Of a DNA stretch of 49,666 nucleotides, positions 13,994-29,086 are shown one piece after another. Source of the DNA: Candidatus Poribacteria bacterium (GTDB taxonomy: Bacteria > Poribacteria > WGA-4E > WGA-3G); NCBI GenBank assembly GCA_022822275.1, contig JAJEBZ010000157.1, positions 1-49,666 on the forward strand, given 5' to 3'. The notes below the pieces were generated by a model. It was not told the DNA's origin. It worked only from the letters and a program-made list of their open reading frames with translations, and ran no database searches. A program made the position numbers and the translations under genes. Positions within the stretch are counted from its first letter, which is position 1; each line of letters begins with the position of its first letter.

Positions 13994-16900
13994 GTGTTAG
14001 AATATTTACGAAAAACAGCAAACTACCAAGATTTTGTTGAATACATTAGGGCAGGAGAACCCACCCCATCAATCCGGGGGTTAAGGAATGCATCTACATC
14101 CTATTTCATCTCGACGCTAATTAAGGATTTTCCAAATAAATCCTTCCTTATCGTTTTTCCTTCACATCGTGAAGCGGAACAAGCCTTAGAAGAGGTGCGC
14201 GCGTTTCATCTATATAATGGCAAACTCAACAGTGATGAGGAAAAAACTACACGAGACAGAATGCATCTCTTTCCAGCATGGCAAAACACCCTTTTTGACG
14301 GAATTTCTCCAACGACACATATCTCAGTCGGTCGCATGCACACTCTAAACAGTCTAATATCAAGCAACGGGCGACACACCTGTTTAGATTCTTCAGTGCC
14401 TTCACCGCAAGATGTGGTTTTTACGACTATTCGTGCTTTATCCTTTAAAATCACTCCGTTCAAAATTCTCTCTTCAGCATGTCGCACTTACAAGGTTGGT
14501 GATGAAGTAAAGTGCGATGACTTTATAGATTTTCTGTTGCGTAGTGGTTATAGAGAGGTTGAATTGGTTGAAGTAAAGGGAGAATTCGCTCATAGAGGGG
14601 ACATAATTGATATTTATCCACTTACTGCAGATGCACCTGTCAGGCTTGACTTTTTTGGAGATGAGCTGGATGAAATCCGTGTTTTCGATCCGACATCGCA
14701 AGTATCAATATTGAAGACAAACTCTGTAGACATTACACCGATGTCAGAGATTTGTCTTGCAGACATATCGTTATCCCATTGGAAATCACAAATCGAACGT
14801 CTGATGAAAAAACCTGGAAATTCCGCAGATATTATTAATTCTGTTAGAGAAATAACAGTACATTTAGAGAATTCGCTTGCAGAAACACAGTCCGACAGTC
14901 TGTTTACAAATGATGATGTGCCGGATGAAATTGATGGAATTGAGTTGTTCCTGCCAATGCTATATCCACATCCTGAAATGCTAACGGATTATTTACCAGA
15001 TGGAACGGTTGTCATCAATGTAGAACCCCGTTGGCAAAAACGGGAGGCAGAACAGATGCGTGAACAACTACGAGATATATTTGATCAGAAATTCACTGAT
15101 GGGAAGTTGGTGCCAACTTTGGATGACCTATTGGTTTCAGATGAACTGCTACAGTTGAGAATGGATAACTTCATGCAAATCCCAATTTCATTAGGAGCAC
15201 CTGCGATTAAACCAGATAAACCAAAAAACTTGCCAGATAAAACCCATGATACTGATACCTTTGAATGTCATTTTGACATCAAACCACTTGGTCTCGGTAA
15301 AGGGAATTATCAGATGGTTATTGATCATATCAATAGATGGACAATGAAGGAGTACCTCGTAAATGTTTTTTGTGAGACTCCCCAACAAGCAAAACGCGTA
15401 TTAGAAATGTTAATTGAACGTGATCTACCACCTGAATATATTTCGGTTTCTGTTGGTTTTATCTCTGAAGGATTTCTAAGCGAGTCATTAAAACTCGTGA
15501 TTATCTCAGAGAATGAAATATTTGGTAATCGTAAGCGACGCGTAGTGTCTCGCAAACGTTACAATAGTGGCGCACCCATCCTGAGTCTAATTGATATGAA
15601 GGTGGGGGACCACGTTGTGCACGTTTCACATGGTATCGCCATCTATGAAGGCATTCGCCGTATAGATATTGATGGACAGGCACAGGATTTTCTTATTCTC
15701 AAGTATAAGGAAGATGATAGGCTTTATGTTCCAACCTATCAGGTTGATCTTGTGCAAAAGTATGTTGGAAACAAGGATGAATCCTACGAACCGAGGATTG
15801 ACTACCTTGGCGGGAAATCATGGCAAAACAGAAAACGTCGTGCAAAAGCTGCCGTTGAAGAGATGGCTGAGGAACTACTAAAATTATACGCCTCACGTCA
15901 AGCGAACGAAGGTTTTTGTTTTCCAAAAGAGGTCCCATGGGAAAGTGAATTTGAAGCACTCTTTCCATTCACCGAAACGGATGACCAACTGCAAGCGATC
16001 GAAGATGTGAAAGCGGATATGGAAACAGACAGACCGATGGATCGGCTTGTCTGTGGAGATGTCGGTTATGGAAAAACTGAAGTCGCACTACGGGCTGCGT
16101 TCAAAGCGGTCATGACAGAAAAACAGGTCGCACTCCTCGTTCCAACAACTATTCTCGCTTTGCAGCACTATGATACTTTTGAAAAACGGTTCAAGCAGTT
16201 TCCACTTCATGTTGAGATGCTAAACCGCTTCCGTAGTCAAAAAGAGATAAAGTCTGTAAAAGAACGACTTGCGGATGGTACCGTAGATATTGTCATCGGC
16301 ACTCACTCATTGCTTTCAGAGACCGTCTCATTTAACAATCTCGGTTTATTGATTGTAGATGAAGAACACCGTTTTGGTGTAAAACATAAAGAGAAAATTA
16401 AGCAGTTTAAAGAGACAGTTGATGTGTTAACACTAACGGCTACCCCGATTCCACGCACATTACACATGTCACTTGTTGGTATAAGAGATTTTAGCATTAT
16501 CAACACACCACCAGCGAATAGATTGCCGATTCAGACGTATGTTCTGCCCTATAATAGTCAAGTCGTTAAAGAAGCTATCTTGAAGGAGATGTCTCGGGAT
16601 GGTCAAGTTTTCTTCGTTCACAACCGTGTTCAGAATATTGCGATGATAGCAAAATCTATCCAAGAACTTGTTCCACATGCACGCGTTGCCATCGCCCATG
16701 GGCAAATGCGTGAACGAGAATTAGAAAACGTAATGTTAGAGTTTGTCCGTCATAAGCATGACATTCTGGTTTGTACAATGATCATTGAATCGGGATTAGA
16801 CATTCCAAATGTCAATACCATCATGATAAATCGTGCAGATGCCTTCGGTTTAGCACAGTTGTATCAACTTCGGGGACGGGTGGGGCGCGCAGACGAACAG

Positions 16901-17599
16901 GCGTATGGTTACCTCTTTTATCCACAAGACAAACCGATTACTGAACGGGCACAGAAAAGGTTACGCGTTATAGAAGAATTTACTGATCTCGGTTCAGGTT
17001 TCAAAATTGCACTTAGGGATTTGGAAATACGCGGGGCAGGAAATATCCTCGGTGCACAACAACACGGACACATTACAAATGTTGGGTACGAACTTTACTG
17101 CAAATTGCTGGATGAGGCTGTCCGAAAGTTAAAAGGGGAAAAAGTTGAGGAAGAAATTGAAACGAACATCAATCTACCTATTGAAGCGTTTTTGCCTGAC
17201 GATTATATTCCCGAAAGCCGCCAGAAAATATCCATCTATAAGAAAATATCTGCCCTAAGAACCGATGAAGAAAAACAGGAACTGATCAACGAACTAAAAG
17301 ATAGATATGGTGATATACCTGCACCTGTTGAGATGCTGTTGGAAATTGCATCAATTAAACAGTTATGTCATAAACTTGGAATCACTGCTATAGTCGCAGG
17401 AGGTAACCGAATTAAAGTGACATTTGATGAACATAATCCACGCATAGATGTAGCTCAGTTTGTTGAGACAGTTCAAAAGAATCCACAACTTGAATTACGC
17501 CCACCAGCACAACTACTGGTAGGTGTAGAAAACTTAACTGGAAAGAAATTATTAACCGAATTACAACGAATTCTAATGATATTTGTTGTCCCTGAATGA
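13994..17599 (+). CDS. mfd: Transcription-repair coupling factor Mfd
   Basis: A 1201-residue DNA translocase that removes RNA polymerase stalled at lesions and recruits UvrA; the length is normal (the E. coli protein is 1148). The N-terminal third is UvrB-like. The RNA-polymerase interaction (CarD-like) domain begins near residue 537 ([19 protein letters not shown]). The RecG-like helicase has Walker A GDVGYGKT (688-695), DEEH (789-792) and [10 protein letters not shown]. The translocation module contains [17 protein letters not shown] and the C-terminal D7 domain ends the protein. It starts at GTG (13994) after AAGGA. The three downstream folding-factor genes run in the same direction. Confidence 0.97.
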
Positions 17600-17610
17600 A
17601 CTTGATAACG

Positions 17611-17631
17611 GGTTAGGTGTAACACCTAACC
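17611..17631. repeat. Short near-perfect palindrome downstream of mfd
   Basis: Arms GGTTAGGTGT and ACACCTAACC around a single central A, between the mfd stop and the GTG of the next gene. It could form a 9-bp hairpin 27 nt before that start, so it could attenuate or pause transcription into the folding-factor genes. Confidence 0.5.
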
Positions 17632-17657
17632 GCCATAAAAATAAGGAGAATTCCAAA

Positions 17658-18632
17658 GTGAAAAAAGCGTATATTGTCGTCATGGCAGTTGTAGCAAGTT
17701 GCCTTCTCACTTGGTCTCTTGTACGTTCCGATAATCATGAAGTCTCTGTAGATGAGGCTGAGAAGAATGATATTGTTATTGCTGAGATGAAGTGGAATGG
17801 AGAGTTACACCAGATTTCCCTCGCGGAACTGGAGGCTGCAATTGCAGAATTACCAACTTACCGTCAGCGAAACTACGCAAGTAAAGCGGGTAAAGCAGAA
17901 TACTTAGAAACCTATATAGATGAAAAACTAAAAATACTGCAAGCGAAAGAAGCAGGTTTTGATAAATTACAGGAACATTTGAAAAGATTGGAAGAATATA
18001 CACATCAACTTATGATAGAAAAACTCACTGAAATGGAAGTTGATGAGAAAGTCACATATACCGAAAAGGATCTGATGGCATACTATGAGGGGCATAAGAA
18101 GGATTATATTGAACCTGCTCAAGTGCGTGCCACATGTATTACCCTTGATGATGAAGACCTTGCTAATGAAACTTTAGACCAGATTACTGCTGGTAAAGAC
18201 ATTGTAGAAATGGCAAAGAAATTGTCTGAGGAGAAAAAATTAGCCAATGGCCCCGGTAGTGGTCAGGAAGATCCAGGCAACACTTTCTTCTTTAACAAAA
18301 ACGCATCTCCGACCTGGTCGGAGTTCATAGATGCCGTATTTGAAATGGAAATCGGTGATACAACAGAAACAGTTTTTGAAATCGATGTACAAGATACGAC
18401 ATATTATCTGATTTTCCGTAAAGAGGAAGCGAAACCGGAACGACAGAAAGAATTCGAAGAAGTTAAATCTGATGTTGAACGTAAAGTTAAACGTGCAACA
18501 AAACGGGCGCGTATCCTTGAATGGATAGACGAAATTTCTAAACAAGCAAAACTGAAAACTTATCCTGAGAATATTCCAATTCCCGTTCAACCTGAGACAA
18601 CTGAAGAAAAACCTGGAAACCCAGATAAATAA
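17658..18632 (+). CDS. Parvulin-like peptidyl-prolyl isomerase (SurA/PrsA type), membrane-anchored
   Basis: A 324-residue exported protein. The start is the GTG at 17658 behind AAGGAG; an in-frame upstream start would add 25 unrelated residues. The signal segment AYIVVMAVVASC contains a possible lipobox (VASC). A helical N-domain of SurA type (residues about 40-150, RQRNYASKAGKAEYLETYIDEKLKILQA) precedes a parvulin-like domain (about 155-280). That domain has lost the usual GGDLG and terminal GFHI motifs (GPGSGQEDPGNTFFF, TTYYLIFRKEE), so catalysis is doubtful and a chaperone-only role is likely. It is a paralogue of the next gene. Confidence 0.8.
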   Translation: MKKAYIVVMAVVASCLLTWSLVRSDNHEVSVDEAEKNDIVIAEMKWNGELHQISLAELEAAIAELPTYRQRNYASKAGKAEYLETYIDEKLKILQAKEAGFDKLQEHLKRLEEYTHQLMIEKLTEMEVDEKVTYTEKDLMAYYEGHKKDYIEPAQVRATCITLDDEDLANETLDQITAGKDIVEMAKKLSEEKKLANGPGSGQEDPGNTFFFNKNASPTWSEFIDAVFEMEIGDTTETVFEIDVQDTTYYLIFRKEEAKPERQKEFEEVKSDVERKVKRATKRARILEWIDEISKQAKLKTYPENIPIPVQPETTEEKPGNPDK

Positions 18633-18666: not shown

Positions 18667-19641
18667 ATGTTCAAATATAGTATTATTCCAATTTTGTTGT
18701 TATTTGCAATACTCACAACCCTACCCTTTATATCAAGTTGTGCTGACAAGGCTATTAGTGCAGATGGCACTGTCATTGCCGAATTTGAATGGGATGGAAA
18801 GCAACGAATTACGCTTGAAGAGATGATGCAAGAGATCAGCGAACTACCAGATTACAAACAGCGACTATATAAAGACAAGAAAGGGCTTGAAGAATACATG
18901 ACCCTGATGGCTGAAAGTCGTTTGATACTTTGTCTCGCAAAAGACAAGAAACTCAATGAGGATCCGGAAATACTCAAGAAAGTTCAAGACTACCTACTGG
19001 ACTTGATGGTTGATAGGATTACAGAACAGGAAGTTGATGCGAAACTTATTTTGACAGAAAATGACTATCTGGCATATTATGAAGCAAACAAAGCCGATTA
19101 TGTTCGTCCAGAGCAGGTCAAACTGATGTGCATCACATTGCAGGACAAAGCACGTGCTGATGCGGTTTTTGCCGAACTAAAAGCTGGCAAAGATATTGCT
19201 GTTGCAGCACAAGAACTTTCTGATAGAGGTGAATTGGTTGGACCAGGTTCAAATCCTGAAGCACCCGGGGACACAGATTATATAAGTAAGAATACATATT
19301 CTCCAGGAACAGAACCCTTTATGGATGCAGCCTTCAAAGCAGAACTTGATGTGCTCCACCCATCAGTTATTGAAGTGGAAGTTCAAGGTGAAAAATTCTT
19401 TATGATGTTCATTAAGAAGGAAGCAAGAGACGAATTTCAGAGACCTTTTTCTGAAGAAGCTGTCAGAAAAAGTGTTGTCAGAAAAGCAGAACGTGAAAAA
19501 CGGGATGCGCTTATGGCAACGTGGCTATTGCAACTACGGGAACGCGCTGAAGTAAAAACCTTCATAGACCGTATTCCAGAAGACAAAGCACCTGAGGAAA
19601 AAACTGAGACACCTACTGAACAAACTACACCTGAGAAATAA
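18667..19641 (+). CDS. Parvulin-like peptidyl-prolyl isomerase lipoprotein
   Basis: A 324-residue predicted lipoprotein (signal peptide ending FISSC) that aligns along its length with the preceding gene (VIAEFEWDG..., YKQRLYKDKKGLEEYM..., DYLAYYEANKADYVRPEQVKLMCITLQD). SurA-type N-domain, then a parvulin-like domain with GPGSNPEAPGDTDYI in place of GGDLG. This looks like a tandem duplication followed by divergence. It has a strong AGGAGG site, 34 bp after the previous stop. It likely works in the periplasm on outer-membrane or exported clients. The C-terminal 30 residues are Pro/Glu/Thr-rich. Confidence 0.8.
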   Translation: MFKYSIIPILLLFAILTTLPFISSCADKAISADGTVIAEFEWDGKQRITLEEMMQEISELPDYKQRLYKDKKGLEEYMTLMAESRLILCLAKDKKLNEDPEILKKVQDYLLDLMVDRITEQEVDAKLILTENDYLAYYEANKADYVRPEQVKLMCITLQDKARADAVFAELKAGKDIAVAAQELSDRGELVGPGSNPEAPGDTDYISKNTYSPGTEPFMDAAFKAELDVLHPSVIEVEVQGEKFFMMFIKKEARDEFQRPFSEEAVRKSVVRKAEREKRDALMATWLLQLRERAEVKTFIDRIPEDKAPEEKTETPTEQTTPEK

Positions 19642-19988: not shown

Positions 19989-21329
19989 ATGAGACCTAAG
20001 CCAATTGCCTATGTACTGTTGATAATTTTTGCAGTTTATAGTGTGGTATCATTAAGCCATGCACGGATTTTTGATAGAATCATCGCTTATGTGAACGATG
20101 ATGTTATCACGAAACGTAAACTTGATGTGTTAGTAAAACAGCAAGCATTCGAACTTCAGCAGGTACACCGTTACAGTGAAAGTGAAGCACTGATTGAAGC
20201 AGAAAAACAACGGAGTGAACTGCTTGATAGATTTATTCGTCAGATGCTTCTTTTAGAAGCGGCTTTGACATTAAAAATACAGGTTACTGATGTTGAGATT
20301 GAAGAACAGATACAAAAGTCTAAAACACAATATCAAATAGCGTCTGATGAAGAATTCAAGAAATTGCTCAATCGTGACGGACTAACACTAATTGCATTTC
20401 GTGAACTGATAGAGCGAAATCTGAAGACTGAAAAACTCGTGATGGGTCGGATCCTGCCTCGATTACAGGTACGCGATAGTGATGTGCAGAAGTTTTTTGA
20501 AGAAAACAGAGACCAACTTCCAACTAAAGCTGATAGAGTACATTTGCGTCAAATATATATCGCTTACAAACCAAGTGATGCAGACAAGAAGACTGCAAAT
20601 GAAACGGTTACGCAAGCTATTGAAGAAATTCGCTCAGACAAAACGAAATTTGAAGAGGTAGCACAACGCATTTCCTCAGAACAGAATCCAGGCTCTCGAG
20701 TCGGTATGCTTATAGAAATTACGCCTGCCGAGATACTTACATTACCCGATGCGTTTCTAACCGTAATGGCGAAACTTAGTGCAGGAGAGATCAGTGATGT
20801 AGTAGAAACTGCAGATGGATTTCATGTGTTTTTGGTAGAAACTCGAACTAACGAAAAAGTTTCCTTCAGACATTTGACTGTGCCTTTTATGTTTAGTGAA
20901 GACGCAAAACAGATTACTCGTGAAAAAGCATCAGAGATAACCAAGAAATTGGAAAAAGGTGAGTCGTTTGTTAACCTTGCAAAAGAACATTCCAATCATG
21001 AAGAGACGCATGAGAAGGGCGGTGACATCGGCACTCATGTTCTAACAGAGTTAAACCCAAGAATAAGAGACGCTGTTGAGAACATTGAGGAAGGTAAGTA
21101 TAGCAAACCTATAGAAACAGAAACAGGATTCTATATCTTTCAAGTTGATAAACGCATAACGCCAGAATTGACCCCGCAAGAGAAGCAACAAATCATTGGT
21201 ATCCTTCGTCAACAACTTTTCCAAAAAGAGTGGACAGCATACACCGATACACTCATGGAAAACGCCTATATCAAGATAAAACCTGAGGCAATACCTACAA
21301 CCGCAACACCGAAAACTACTGATAAATAA
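19989..21329 (+). CDS. surA: SurA-like periplasmic chaperone/prolyl isomerase
   Basis: A 446-residue exported protein (signal peptide 1-26, ending SLSHA). The SurA N-domain begins at once (RIFDRIIAYVNDDVITKRKLDVLVKQQ). Two parvulin domains follow: about 180-285 (VHLRQIYIAYK..., ADGFHVFLVETR) and about 290-395 (VSFRHLTVPF, EKGGDIGTHV, TGFYIFQVDKR). The C-terminal helix (about 400-435) is as in SurA. The second domain keeps the active-site pattern better. SurA escorts outer-membrane proteins, LptD above all, to the BAM complex. Here the very next gene is an LptD, 114 bp to its preferred start, with the open frame beginning 9 bp after this stop. The gene name rests on architecture. Confidence 0.88.
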   Translation: MRPKPIAYVLLIIFAVYSVVSLSHARIFDRIIAYVNDDVITKRKLDVLVKQQAFELQQVHRYSESEALIEAEKQRSELLDRFIRQMLLLEAALTLKIQVTDVEIEEQIQKSKTQYQIASDEEFKKLLNRDGLTLIAFRELIERNLKTEKLVMGRILPRLQVRDSDVQKFFEENRDQLPTKADRVHLRQIYIAYKPSDADKKTANETVTQAIEEIRSDKTKFEEVAQRISSEQNPGSRVGMLIEITPAEILTLPDAFLTVMAKLSAGEISDVVETADGFHVFLVETRTNEKVSFRHLTVPFMFSEDAKQITREKASEITKKLEKGESFVNLAKEHSNHEETHEKGGDIGTHVLTELNPRIRDAVENIEEGKYSKPIETETGFYIFQVDKRITPELTPQEKQQIIGILRQQLFQKEWTAYTDTLMENAYIKIKPEAIPTTATPKTTDK

Positions 21330-21443: not shown

Positions 21444-24400
21444 ATGAAGAAATTGCGAAGTCTCTGTAGGTTTGCTTGTTTACAACAATTTGCTGTAGTA
21501 TTTGCTTGCATTTTTCTCGCTCTTACTCCACTTAATGCACAAGAAGCAGAACCAAACGAACAGATCCCCGCACCAGACACATCAGAAAAGTCTAACACAA
21601 CATCTGATCAAAAAACGCCCCAACCTACCACTACAAAAAAATCAACTTTAGATCCTGAAACTATGACTCCCGAAATAGATACAGTAATCGGGGATGGTGA
21701 CAAGGTCGTTATACACGGAAATTTTGTACAAATTCATGGGGATGCCCTCATAAAATATGATAATATCATCTTGCGAGCAGACAACGTGTGGGCTGACTTT
21801 AATGAAAATCTATTACGTGCTGCAGGAAATGTGTATCTTAAGGTCGGTGAGGAGGAAACCTATTCAGATGAACTCGTGTTCAACCTTAAAACAAAGAAGG
21901 GAATTGCCCGAAATGGGTTCACATTCAGTGATCCATGGTACTTTGGAGGGAGTGAAATCTTTAAAATAGAGGATAAAAAATCTTATATTCGCGGAGGTAC
22001 CCTTACAACATGCTCCCTTAAGCATCCACACTATCATTTCAGCGTATCCCAAGTGATAATCAAAATGAACCAGGAGATGATTGCAAAAAATATCGTCATG
22101 CGGATAGGGGGTGTCCCCATTTTCTATTTCCCCGTGATTCGTCGCGATCTGCGTAAAGATAAAGTCGCAAAGATAGTTGTGCGGGTGGGAACGGATAGCT
22201 ACCAAGGTCCTAACATTAGTATCATCCTGCCTGTTGCACGTGAAAGAAGATACGATGGTGCGTTATTATATGATCGGAGTGCTCGAAGAGGACAGGGCTT
22301 CGGTACTGAAGGTAAATATAGGTTTAGTGATACCCAATTTCAAGAAATCCATATTCCTGTCCCACCAGATGCTACACCTGCACAACGTACAAAATTGGAA
22401 GAGAAGGCAAAAGAGATATATGACCGACTTGAAGGTAAATATGACCGGTTTTGGTTAAAACAGATATTTCTGGAATATAAGATTACCGGCGAAGATGCTG
22501 ACCGAGCAAAGTCAGAAGCAGAAGCATTACTAAATCGATTGAATGAAGAAGGGGCTGACTTTTCCCGAATCGCTCAAACTGAATCTGACCATACTGATAC
22601 GCGATACGATGGTGGCGATATGGGTTTCCTTGTAAAAGGTGAAACTGATGAGGAGGGAAATCCAAAACTCGATCCAATCTTAGAAGAAGCTGCGTTCAAC
22701 CTTAAGGAAGGTGAACTTAGTGATATATTAAAAACTGAAACCGCATTCCACATTCTAAAAGCTGAACGGGTTATTGACATCTACGGTGAGCGTGAGGTAA
22801 AACTGCTTCGCATTGATATAGCGATTACCGCCAGCAATGAAACGCAGCAAAGTGTCCGCGGAATTGCTACTACTATCCATGAACGCGCACTCGCTGGTGA
22901 AACTTTTGAAGAACTTGCTAACGAATTTTCAGAAGCTACTTTATCTGAAATAAATGAGGGTAAAGGCCTACCCCTCAACGAGATGGAAGCTGGTTGGCAG
23001 TTTTCTGTTAGAAGGATGACTCAACCCGGAGACATAACAGAACGACGTCCTGTTTTTTCTCCGAAGGGTGTTTATATCTTCCAGTTGATTAAAAGAGAGA
23101 AAACACCTACCTTTGAAGAGCTTGCTGAACAGTTTGAAGCGGAATGGAAAACTTTTGAAGCAGAAGTATTAGCGACGACAGACGATGAAGAAGATAAAGA
23201 TTCTTCAGATGGAACTAAAGACGATTCTGGCAAAGATAATGCCACCTCGTCAGAAGTAATTGAGAAAAATGAGAATGAAACACCAACGAAACCTGTGCCA
23301 ACTGAGGATGCTCCTACAAAGGTGGAAAATGCTGAAAACGAAGAGGAAGAAAAAACAACGGATAAAGAAAATGTTGAGGTGGAAGGAGAAAATATAGAAG
23401 ATGAAGAGGAGATAAAAGTTTATAGAAAACACGGTTTCCGCGGACGATGGGAAGACCCAAGACAAGTTGCTTCAGAAGCAAATAATCTATATGCTGGTGA
23501 ACATAGTCGGGTTCTTAATACGAAGGATGCGTTTAGACTGATCAAAGTTGATAGAAAACGGAGTTACAACGGAGATCTATATCTTTACGGGGCAGACGAA
23601 TACTCCTTTAGCAGACAGGATGCAACCCGAATTGGTAGACGTTGGAATATGCGTTTGGGACACAAACATTCCTTCTACACACCGTGGGACAGTCGGAAAG
23701 CTGGAAGACGCCCAATCAGTTTCGTTGGTCGGACTGCATGGCGTGCAATCCACTATAAAGATGATTTAGGGTTACAAAACGATTCCTCACTTAATTCTTT
23801 TGGGATCCTGACGTACGGTTCCGCATTATCCACAGCAAGCCACGAAGACGTTGATAAAGATGGCAATCTTACGTATTCTGATGAAACCATAGGGGATATT
23901 TCAAGCAGACTTGAAGTTCGTCATGTCCAAGATTTCTCTGGACAGCCAAACACTGCACTACAAAAACTACCTCAATTCACTCTAAATTTTTCCCGCATGC
24001 GTTTTAACAGACTGCCAGTCTTTGAAACGATAAATAAGGGGATGGTTGCAGTAGCGGAAAAAACTAAAATCAATAAACCGATTCTATCACTCCTTGCCTT
24101 TCCAACACTTGAAGACACCAGTTTTGATATGGATATTGAATTTGGCAATTTTTATAGACAGACGTATCTCGGTAAAAATGGGGAGGAGAACAACGTTTTT
24201 CTTCAGACCCTAAACTTAGGTTTTGACCTTCGCAAACAGGCAAACATATTTATCACACCTATGCGTGAGATAAAGTTAAATGCTAATCTGAATACAAATG
24301 GAATTTGGCACGCAAAAGATCAAGATAAGAATCGTAATATAATTCGTGGGGTATATAGTATAAGCGCACAAGCGACTAATACGCTGTTTCGCATATACAA

Positions 24401-25241
24401 TACGAACTTTATTCCTGCTGTTCGTAAATTGCGTCATGAAATACAATCCACACTAACATTTAGCTATCAACCTGCAATTGATGAAAATAACAATCTTTAC
24501 CCGTTTGGACCTAGCACCTATTTCTTTGAGAGAAAAAGGTTGACTTACAATTTCAATACGAATATTGAAATAAAAACGCGACGAAGTCAGAGCGCACACC
24601 GTATCTTCCATTTTGATACACGACTTACAGCAGATTTTACAGATTTTGAGGCACTATACAGGCGAAGATATGAACCAATTGAAAGCGATTTCACAATTGT
24701 TCCATTGCCAAGCCGTAGTCTTAATATCACTGTCCGCCTCACGCATGACCCTAATCCACATCCAGATGATGGGAAACAGTTCAAGATGGTAGGTGTACGG
24801 ACAAATGTTAGATACACACGAAGCGATTGGTATGTGAGCTTCGGAAACTCTTTCAGCAAACGTCATACTTCTATTCAAGCCTCACGTTCTATGACGGCAA
24901 ATGGTCGCTACCGTGTCAATAAGGACCTTGAATTTGACTTTAGCCTAATATATTATCCTATTGAAAGACAATTTTATTCACAACGAATCAGTATTAACCG
25001 AAATTTGCATGATTGGAACTTGCGAATCTCGTGGAGTCGAGTTGGTATCAAACGTGATCCACCGTTTGATAATGTACGTCAAGACTTTACATTCCAAGTT
25101 AACTTGATAGGTGAACCAGCAGTGTCTATGGGTGTTGGTTTTGACGCAACCACAGAAACTTGGGGACTACATACTTTGCCTGCTGGTGTGCCATATAATG
25201 CGTTTGGCACTGGAAATTCACTTGGTCGTTCCTTCTTCTAA
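21444..25241 (+). CDS. lptD: LptD-like LPS-assembly outer-membrane protein with inserted parvulin domains
   Basis: A 1265-residue protein; canonical LptD has about 780. Numbering is from the ATG at 21444, chosen because it starts the signal peptide (1-32, cleavage after LNA); a TTG at 21339 would add 35 residues, and neither has a good ribosome site. The LptA-like domain spans about 80-180. LptD continues (GGSEIFKIEDKKSYIRGGTLTTCSLKHPHYHF) into the first barrel strands (about 248-295). Then about 410 extra residues: a parvulin domain (336-445, GGDMGF at 390, AFHILKAER at 434), a degenerate second one (450-555), an acidic linker (576-657) and a tail-like fragment (670-705). The barrel resumes near 708 and ends in Phe, as outer-membrane barrels do. 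It would place LPS in the outer leaflet with LptE, which is not seen here. Confidence 0.85.
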   Translation: MKKLRSLCRFACLQQFAVVFACIFLALTPLNAQEAEPNEQIPAPDTSEKSNTTSDQKTPQPTTTKKSTLDPETMTPEIDTVIGDGDKVVIHGNFVQIHGDALIKYDNIILRADNVWADFNENLLRAAGNVYLKVGEEETYSDELVFNLKTKKGIARNGFTFSDPWYFGGSEIFKIEDKKSYIRGGTLTTCSLKHPHYHFSVSQVIIKMNQEMIAKNIVMRIGGVPIFYFPVIRRDLRKDKVAKIVVRVGTDSYQGPNISIILPVARERRYDGALLYDRSARRGQGFGTEGKYRFSDTQFQEIHIPVPPDATPAQRTKLEEKAKEIYDRLEGKYDRFWLKQIFLEYKITGEDADRAKSEAEALLNRLNEEGADFSRIAQTESDHTDTRYDGGDMGFLVKGETDEEGNPKLDPILEEAAFNLKEGELSDILKTETAFHILKAERVIDIYGEREVKLLRIDIAITASNETQQSVRGIATTIHERALAGETFEELANEFSEATLSEINEGKGLPLNEMEAGWQFSVRRMTQPGDITERRPVFSPKGVYIFQLIKREKTPTFEELAEQFEAEWKTFEAEVLATTDDEEDKDSSDGTKDDSGKDNATSSEVIEKNENETPTKPVPTEDAPTKVENAENEEEEKTTDKENVEVEGENIEDEEEIKVYRKHGFRGRWEDPRQVASEANNLYAGEHSRVLNTKDAFRLIKVDRKRSYNGDLYLYGADEYSFSRQDATRIGRRWNMRLGHKHSFYTPWDSRKAGRRPISFVGRTAWRAIHYKDDLGLQNDSSLNSFGILTYGSALSTASHEDVDKDGNLTYSDETIGDISSRLEVRHVQDFSGQPNTALQKLPQFTLNFSRMRFNRLPVFETINKGMVAVAEKTKINKPILSLLAFPTLEDTSFDMDIEFGNFYRQTYLGKNGEENNVFLQTLNLGFDLRKQANIFITPMREIKLNANLNTNGIWHAKDQDKNRNIIRGVYSISAQATNTLFRIYNTNFIPAVRKLRHEIQSTLTFSYQPAIDENNNLYPFGPSTYFFERKRLTYNFNTNIEIKTRRSQSAHRIFHFDTRLTADFTDFEALYRRRYEPIESDFTIVPLPSRSLNITVRLTHDPNPHPDDGKQFKMVGVRTNVRYTRSDWYVSFGNSFSKRHTSIQASRSMTANGRYRVNKDLEFDFSLIYYPIERQFYSQRISINRNLHDWNLRISWSRVGIKRDPPFDNVRQDFTFQVNLIGEPAVSMGVGFDATTETWGLHTLPAGVPYNAFGTGNSLGRSFF

Positions 25242-26977: not shown

Positions 26978-29086
26978 ATGAAATATCTGATACCCATTTT
27001 GGTATTTATAAGTGTATTTATCGGTTGTTCTTCTACACAGAACATTGAAATCCCAGAGGAAAACATAACACCACAAGCAGATAATCTTGAGAAAGTAGTT
27101 GTTGAAGCGGAAAAGGGACCAAAAGAAAACAGAGTACCACAGGAAGAGTCCGCTCAAAAGGTAGAAACACCACAGAAAGATGAATCGGTTGCTGAAAAAG
27201 AAGCCCCAAAGGATGTTTCAAAACCAGATGTCGTTACACCTATTGAAAAACCTGAAAATACACCTATTGAAAGACCTGAACCCAGTCCACCTGATTTCAT
27301 TGAGTTTCCTGATCCAAAATTGGCGGAAGTCATACGTGAAGTGCTGAAGATAGCACCAGAAGAACCCATATCTCGCGAAGCACTAAAAGAAATAAAGACG
27401 CTATTTGCACCAAACAGAGGCATAACAGATTTGACAGGACTTGAATATGCAACGGGGCTTACTGATTTAGAGCTTGGTGGGAATGACATTTCGGATCTAA
27501 CAACACTTCCAGTTTTGCCCCAATTGACAGACCTATCTCTAAGTAGCAATCATATTAAAGATATTGGACCGTTAAAGAAACTTACCCAACTGAAGAAATT
27601 GGAGTTGGTCCATAATCAGATTGTAGACGTTACACCCCTCAAAGAGTTAAAACAACTAACCCTTCTGTATATTCGTTACAATAAAATTGAAAACATAAAA
27701 CCGCTTAGTGGTCTGACAAACTTAGAACTTTTAGAACTTTTCGATAACCCAATCACGGATCTGACTCCTATTCAAGGAATGAAAAGCCTCCAATACCTGT
27801 ATGTGATGGGACTGCCGATTGACAGCATTGAACCTATAAAAAATTTGACTAAACTTAGAAGCATTAAAATGAATGGATGTCACATAAATGATGTTTCTCC
27901 GCTTTCAAATTTGTCACATCTTACAAAAATAGTAGCTGGCAACAATCGTATTCATGACATTACACCATTAAAATCTTTGATAAATCTGACAGAATTACAT
28001 CTTAATAACAATCAAATTAATAGTATTGAAGCATTGGCAGGTTTGTCTGAAATAGAAAGGTTATCACTATCATCTAACCGTATCAGCGATATAACGCCAC
28101 TTTCATCATTAACGCAACTTGAAGAATTGACTTTAGCTCAAAATATAATAAACGATTTAACACCGCTTGGAAAACTGACTAATCTGCGTAAATTGTCTCT
28201 AACAAATAATAGAATTAGCGATATAACGCCTCTTGCAAATTTGACACGACTTCAAAGTTTACCGCTTAGTCAAAATCAGATAAGCGATGTTTCTCCAATT
28301 ATTAAAATGAAAAATGTGTCAAGTCTTTCCCTTTCCTCCAATAGAATCAGTGATATAACTCTACTTGCAAACATGCGACAATTGACATACTTAGGGCTTG
28401 ATGGGAATCAGATAACCGACATTTCACCACTTGCAGGATTGACCCAATTAAAAGGGTTAAGCCTTGGTAACAATCAAATTAGTGATGCTACGCCTCTTAT
28501 TGGATTAACACAACTTAGTACTCTACAGATTGGAAATAATCAAATAGCTGACCTAACTTTGCTTGCAAGATTATCCCAACTCAGACATTTACAAATCAAT
28601 AACAATCAGATTAAAAACATTGAATTCCTTAAGGAATTCCGGCTATTGCGGAAATTAAACATTGAGCAAAACCCAATAGAGGATTACACGCCACTCAAGG
28701 AATTAGAGAATTTGTCTGGACTATCGATTGGAGGTGTTCATTTTTCGGATATTAATACAATTGGTGCTTGCATCAGTCTCAGATCATTATACTTACGAAA
28801 TTCCCAAATCAGTGACATTACACAACTTTCAAATTTAAAACAGCTTAGCATACTACTACTCGTGAATAACAAAATACAAAACATTACCCCTCTTGCTAAT
28901 TTTCCGAAACTGTCACACTTATACCTTGATGAAAACCATATTACCGATATAAGTTCAGTTGAGAAACTTACGAATTTAAAATCTATTTTTGTCAAAGTAA
29001 ATCCAATTACTGACATTACACCCTTACAGAAACTTCTTGAAAATAACCCAAAACTGAAGGTAATCACTAAAAAATTGTATTTGTGA
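26978..29086 (+). CDS. Leucine-rich repeat lipoprotein (SDS22/internalin-like)
   Basis: A 702-residue surface or periplasmic lipoprotein. The signal peptide ends in lipobox FIGC (Cys17). Residues 18-105 form a Pro/Glu/Lys-rich linker with repeated PQ-x-E and EKPE-type words. A short cap (DFIEFPDPKLAEVIREVLKI) follows. Roughly two dozen 22-residue LRRs of the form L-x-x-L-x-x-L-x-L-x-x-N-x-I-x-D-I-x-P-L fill about 145-695, the bacterial internalin/SDS22 spacing. The protein would be a long curved solenoid for protein-protein binding. No sorting signal or catalytic domain. AAGGAG precedes the ATG. It has the strongest promoter in the window, divergent from another lipoprotein gene. Confidence 0.88.
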   Translation: MKYLIPILVFISVFIGCSSTQNIEIPEENITPQADNLEKVVVEAEKGPKENRVPQEESAQKVETPQKDESVAEKEAPKDVSKPDVVTPIEKPENTPIERPEPSPPDFIEFPDPKLAEVIREVLKIAPEEPISREALKEIKTLFAPNRGITDLTGLEYATGLTDLELGGNDISDLTTLPVLPQLTDLSLSSNHIKDIGPLKKLTQLKKLELVHNQIVDVTPLKELKQLTLLYIRYNKIENIKPLSGLTNLELLELFDNPITDLTPIQGMKSLQYLYVMGLPIDSIEPIKNLTKLRSIKMNGCHINDVSPLSNLSHLTKIVAGNNRIHDITPLKSLINLTELHLNNNQINSIEALAGLSEIERLSLSSNRISDITPLSSLTQLEELTLAQNIINDLTPLGKLTNLRKLSLTNNRISDITPLANLTRLQSLPLSQNQISDVSPIIKMKNVSSLSLSSNRISDITLLANMRQLTYLGLDGNQITDISPLAGLTQLKGLSLGNNQISDATPLIGLTQLSTLQIGNNQIADLTLLARLSQLRHLQINNNQIKNIEFLKEFRLLRKLNIEQNPIEDYTPLKELENLSGLSIGGVHFSDINTIGACISLRSLYLRNSQISDITQLSNLKQLSILLLVNNKIQNITPLANFPKLSHLYLDENHITDISSVEKLTNLKSIFVKVNPITDITPLQKLLENNPKLKVITKKLYL

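Follow-up and report, generated by a model that had tools for sequence, protein, structure and literature searches.

Parvulin domains of SurA type in a predicted periplasmic turn of the LptD barrel of Poribacteria

The assembly of LptD in E. coli depends on SurA. It takes about 20 minutes, placing LptD among the slowest outer-membrane proteins (PMC13067283). In E. coli SurA, the client site lies between the core and the parvulin domain P1, and the core by itself can complement a surA deletion for membrane sensitivity, the role of the parvulin domains being unsettled (PMC11366764). Here we describe an LptD that carries parvulin domains within its own barrel, found in a Candidatus Poribacteria genome (GCA_022822275.1) and throughout the phylum. 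No description of a parvulin-bearing LptD was found in the literature searched, which covered few subscription-journal papers. The window is the whole stretch analysed, 49,666 nucleotides of contig JAJEBZ010000157.1, and the features given below for lptD and its upstream neighbors are on its forward strand.

The ORF at 21444..25241 encodes an LptD of 1265 aa with an internal parvulin module, as indicated by its fold, its profile match across phyla and the LPS partner genes of the genome. A signal peptide was recognized by eye in the sequence (residues 1-32, MKKLRSLCRF...LNA; 21444..21539), followed by an N-terminal LptA/OstA-type jelly-roll (NTD; residues 79-240; 21678..22163), all-beta in the model and with a profile match. 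Barrel strands 1-4 (residues 245-305; 22176..22358) come next in the model, the fourth continuing into the insert, and the remaining 22 strands, 5-26, extend with the C-terminus from residue 696 to 1265 (23529..25241; LptD_2 at residues 889-1019), ending in GRSFF. The AlphaFold2 model, built for residues 70-1265 with 44 sequences, has moderate confidence (pLDDT 76.7, pTM 0.58) and shows the jelly-roll, 26 barrel strands by our own count and the parvulin module between strands 4 and 5; strands 1-4 are residues 176-182, 186-197, 201-210 and 214-236 of the model (69 is added for protein numbering). Foldseek placed LptD structures at the top (4q35_A, E 3.0e-20), with many LptDE entries, and after them the PPIase 8hm4 and SurA (1m5y). 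Residues 80-297 match the LptDs of other phyla by profile (P 99.9), the match ending exactly at the insert. The same genome contains LpxC (E 1.2e-87), LptF/G (E 8.6e-83 and 2.6e-79) and LptE (E 3.4e-7), and only one LptD was found in it. An LptF-LptG fusion, suspected from a single 768-aa frame, was discarded, as a stop separates two neighboring ORFs. The sequence-only reading had taken the ORF, its start and its features for those of an LptD-like protein, and the 26-strand model and the match to 4q35 agree with that description.

Among the Pfam families for LptD, PF04453 matches neither the LptD of the window nor anything else in its genome, while LptD_2 (PF19838) reaches 22.1 bits against a cut-off of 22.5, and 35.9 bits in a relative from the second class. 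Since PF04453 misses this protein, whereas Rotamase scores strongly, automatic annotation would probably name it a peptidylprolyl isomerase.

The insert comprises residues 296-707 (22329-23564), about 410 residues, between barrel strands 4 and 5. PF00639 (Rotamase) matches the protein with E 3.1e-27 in two separate stretches, the best at residues 345-441. When scored separately, P1 (residues 337-446; 22452..22781) has 62.9 bits and the degenerate P2 (residues 447-556; 22782..23111) has 30.7 bits, both above the Pfam cut-off of 21.7 bits, and comparison with profiles of the neighboring SurA domains gives E 1.7e-26 and E 8.9e-20, respectively. The sequence-only reading had described in this insert a parvulin with GGDMGF and AFHILKAER and a second, degenerate one, and both are borne out by the HMM scores; the limits that it gave for the insert and the placement "between early barrel strands" also stand, the latter made precise by the model as strands 4-5. 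Parvulin fold matches of the insert include 3gpk, Pin1 and PrsA. SurA_N has no match in the LptD protein, the likeness of the insert being limited to the P1-P2 part of SurA. Among 44 relatives, the lengths of P1 and P2 are nearly fixed and the tail varies from 40 to 48 residues. Relatives show three or four Rotamase stretches. The LptDs of genus g3 have about 50-60 additional residues within P1 (G019:C2 933071-933252; G022:C131 16279-16436). In another bin, G067, there are two LptD copies (G067:C130 and G067:C35), of which 9% contamination is the likely cause.

Downstream of P2 there is an acidic low-complexity linker (residues 569-657; 23148..23414), with 35 D/E in 95 residues and pLDDT of about 25, followed by a further parvulin segment, P3C (residues 658-705; 23415..23558; profile comparison E 9.9e-10), which runs into barrel strand 5. 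The linker evolves fast (23% identity) and varies from 46 to 153 aa in the order of the window, against 8-9 aa in other orders. Being confined to one order, with about 8 aa elsewhere, it was probably absent from the ancestral insert; the linker pointed out from sequence is therefore present, although as an order-specific element. In the orders with the 8-9-residue linker we found a continuous segment, TPTFEELARQYS...GGDKGYRG...GEMSDVIETPKTYRIIKVEDKR, equivalent to a parvulin without its N-terminal third, and in eight genomes the P3C segment corresponds to Rotamase positions ~33-97 (55.1 bits in G051, 50.8 bits in G061). The fragment that had been likened to a parvulin tail is thus real, and belongs to a third parvulin, P3. 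The possibility that the tail has a full-length parvulin of its own was rejected, since the segment is the latter part of a domain that is probably discontinuous.

The first third of P3 is most likely the stretch that precedes P1 (EIHIPVPPDATPAQRTKLEEKAKEIYDRLEG), judging from weak similarities that are in register. This stretch, P3N (residues 298-336; 22335..22451), would provide the N-terminal strand and helix of the domain, which is how it appears in the AlphaFold2 model. In 40 of the 44 relatives it matches, weakly, SurA-parvulin profile positions before 34, and the copy in the window aligns with residues 179-211 of E. coli SurA, where P1 starts (pairwise z 5.3; 0.3-7.7 in other relatives). 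Strands 4 and 5 of the model are long, with 23 and 25 residues, which would fit an outer P3 whose terminal strands extend the barrel hairpin. We suggest that P1-P2 are probably nested inside a discontinuous P3.

Whether the insert ends up periplasmic or extracellular had been called a puzzle by the sequence-only reading, and the answer is the periplasm. As the NTD is periplasmic, strand 4 leads back to the inner side, which makes its turn into strand 5 periplasmic; the insert occupies an even-to-odd strand turn in the 26-strand model. LptDs of other phyla have only 2-4 turn residues at this position (YNLQDKTKGFLYGYYI or the like). Since the lone E. coli LptD sequence gave too weak a profile match for locating the turn, its position was derived from bridging LptDs and strand parity. 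Extracellular loop 4 of E. coli LptD corresponds to residues 330-352 (PMC13067283), and counting strands back from it by eye puts the matching turn (~279-285) on the periplasmic side. Given strand parity and turn length, we reject an extracellular placement, and the predicted position of the module in a periplasmic turn is well supported.

LptDs of the other class (G060 and G061) have an additional parvulin within the barrel, at residues 749-835 of L084 (51.7 bits for Rotamase), making four Rotamase stretches altogether. The model of this LptD puts it between strands 10 and 11, also an even-to-odd turn, where the protein of the window has only a helix (residues 854-891; 24003..24116). This suggests that the periplasmic turns of a barrel can accommodate multiple folded domains, here at two different sites. 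After the second-site parvulin, the L084 ORF (residues 749-880, G061) and L086 show what appears to be a lone N-terminal strand and helix of a parvulin (KARHIFIAIDPNIRTKDEASKLSDIIYRKLDEG).

An insert at the same place was sought in 85 Poribacteria genomes from 22 genera, 10 families and 2 classes. LptD was not detected in three drafts (G049, G065 and G068), and 81 of the 82 genomes with a detectable LptD have the NTD and the insert in one frame, the exception being G011, whose lptD gene is split over two contigs. In a small number of further genomes the gene is interrupted elsewhere, by a stop or a contig break. The genome of the window is itself a draft with 320 contigs, which would suit an artefact of assembly or binning that fused lptD with a parvulin gene. 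This explanation is hardly credible, since assemblies made independently show the same fusion at an identical position, among them single-contig genomes (G010, G024, G044, G082-G084) and, from different studies, 19 named records, all Candidatus Poribacteria; an assembly join is thereby ruled out. The Poribacteria carrying this LptD are sponge-associated. Outside the phylum, the NTD is present in 213 of 302 genomes, and a search of these 302 (few genomes per phylum) with the NTD + insert profile (E <= 1e-40) recovered no insert-bearing LptD. The best outside matches (1e-41 to 1e-44) are ordinary LptDs of 661-763 aa, with the alignment stopping before or near the insert, and the ten longest outside LptDs (1051-1384 aa), when checked, had N-terminal extensions in which no parvulin was found. 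A very diverged or an independent insertion outside Poribacteria is possible. The anatomy of the protein and its conservation throughout the phylum are well supported.

The gene lies in a conserved order that starts with mfd (13994..17599), followed by two genes for PPIase-like proteins with Rotamase_2 (17583..18632 and 18667..19641), surA (19989..21329, with the SurA_N core and two parvulins) and lptD. This order is kept across most Poribacteria loci, with surA directly upstream of lptD in the window and in nearly all of them, as the sequence-only reading had seen for this locus. In E. coli lptD is also beside surA, in the reversed order. Further downstream in the window, a 702-aa protein (26978-29086) consists mostly of leucine-rich repeats (LRR_4, 15 stretches) and is internalin-like by family score. 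The A1 profile matches the neighboring SurA over the whole P1-P2 tandem (E 6.5e-31), and by this measure the insert reads as a SurA-type P1-P2 tandem. In a domain tree of few columns, the P1 domains of LptD join SurA-P1 of the second class (97/87) and the P2 domains form one group (92/89) near SurA-P2, the latter proximity without firm support. Most likely, the module arose by copying of P1-P2 from the adjacent surA before the known Poribacteria diverged. The view that a client has absorbed a chaperone module is well supported for anatomy and history, as a SurA-type tandem is found in the sole LptD, beside surA, phylum-wide; LptD itself would be the client of the module.

Chaperoning in cis, or docking of the SurA core, during the assembly of LptD seems to us the most likely use of the module, with about an even chance of being right. 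In this reading, a SurA-type module is built into the LptD barrel at the periplasmic turn of strands 4-5, where the terminal strands of the outer P3 probably extend these barrel strands and P1-P2 would hang, nested, in the periplasm. During the time that LptD, very large and slow to fold, spends in the periplasm and at BAM, P1 and P2 may bind the unfolded strands of the same protein, offer the SurA core a docking site in cis, or both, so that a tethered encounter would replace the bimolecular one between SurA and LptD. The module would remain periplasmic once LptD is assembled, and prolyl isomerization by catalysis would probably be secondary. A full SurA is kept in most of the phylum, which indicates that the module is not a simple replacement for it.

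Family f5 is different in this respect. In the place of surA there is a gene of about 225 aa with the SurA_N core and the SurA C-terminal tail, and P1 and P2 are cleanly absent in 5/5 genomes examined (L049:5865-6539, L053:6973-7677, L057:5181-5858; also L055 and L056). The LptDs of f5 retain their parvulins, and the remaining Rotamase matches in these genomes are PpiD-like or weak. The gene before surA in f5 (about 650-740 aa) appears to join ppiA and ppiB, which are separate in the window (L049:3645-5861, L053:7681-9624; also L055, L056 and L057). SurA could have been split, with its parvulin half moved into LptD, its core working with LptD in trans and the LPS gate doubling as a docking station for barrel assembly, f5 being the completed state; we regard this scenario as speculative and rather unlikely. 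A phylum with parvulins covalently bound to the client, together with the f5 SurA that lacks them, offers a natural experiment on the role of these domains.

The same f5 genomes, in which SurA looks as though it were split over two proteins, would also fit a general foldase anchored in the outer membrane. After the placement of LptD, the tethered SurA half would receive other outer-membrane proteins, with the free SurA core possibly binding in trans. Parvulins tethered to a membrane are familiar from PrsA and PpiD; on the other hand, E. coli has few copies of LptD, an LPS pore would be an odd site for a general foldase, and most of the phylum also retains the full SurA, all of which leaves this role doubtful when compared with the chaperoning or docking in cis proposed above.

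Conservation is 0.56-0.59 in P1, P2 and P3C, against 0.63 in the barrel, and these domains are under purifying selection with low dN/dS (e.g., dN 0.008 and dS 0.162 in P2). Such selection, near the level of the barrel, disfavors a passive ornament, that is, an insertion that does no harm in a permissive turn and is simply inherited. The insertion does sit at a turn, and its linker accepts large changes in length (46-153 aa); since the domains have nearly fixed lengths and 81 of the 82 genomes, deeply diverged as they are, have kept them, we consider this explanation very improbable. At the positions which, aligned by eye with Pin1, we take to be those of the parvulin active site, the first catalytic-type histidine is Q/E/R in 44/44 sequences, the second is H throughout the order of the window and not in other orders, and the position of F134 is mostly L. 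The missing catalytic-type histidines make binding, chaperoning or docking more likely than catalysis, and the best reading is a mostly non-catalytic module with SurA-type binding or docking that would help the assembly of LptD itself.

The loss of active-site histidines, the conserved fold, found at two sites in the second class, and the insertion in bridge-side turns would also suit a structural role in the mature LPS bridge. The module would then pack on the jelly-roll, on LptE or on LptA, or keep the barrel at a distance from the cell wall, with its parvulin fold used as no more than a binding scaffold. We find this unlikely, because a SurA-type module beside surA, in a phylum where the SurA of f5 lost its own copy, points to the assembly of outer-membrane proteins and away from LPS transport. 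The suggestion that the module serves to fold its own barrel agrees with the periplasmic position and the loss in f5 SurA, while the missing histidines limit it, and we infer such a use with this reservation.

Compared with known systems, the LptD of Poribacteria shares with that of Enterobacteria (PDB 4q35, 8h1r, 9kn3) the jelly-roll, the 26-strand barrel and a gene beside surA, in genomes that likewise have LptE, LptF/G and LpxC. The E. coli protein has 784 aa and a short turn where Poribacteria have about 410 parvulin residues, and the two are only ~8% identical in the structure alignment. Long LptDs from other phyla (1051-1384 aa) are also of unusual length, but their extra length precedes the jelly-roll. 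In PrsA and PpiD (matches 4wo7, 6vj4, 8zht), the parvulin fold is also held by the membrane on the exported side, although by a lipid anchor or a single helix instead of a barrel hairpin, and within another architecture. With SurA, from E. coli and from the neighboring gene, the insert shares the P1-P2 tandem, in the same order and with kinship at the domain level, likewise nested within another domain. It differs from SurA in having no N-core, in being hosted by a third parvulin and a membrane barrel, and in being covalently part of its presumed client. Both LptD and parvulins of SurA type were already known as kinds, and the architecture is a variant of the two.
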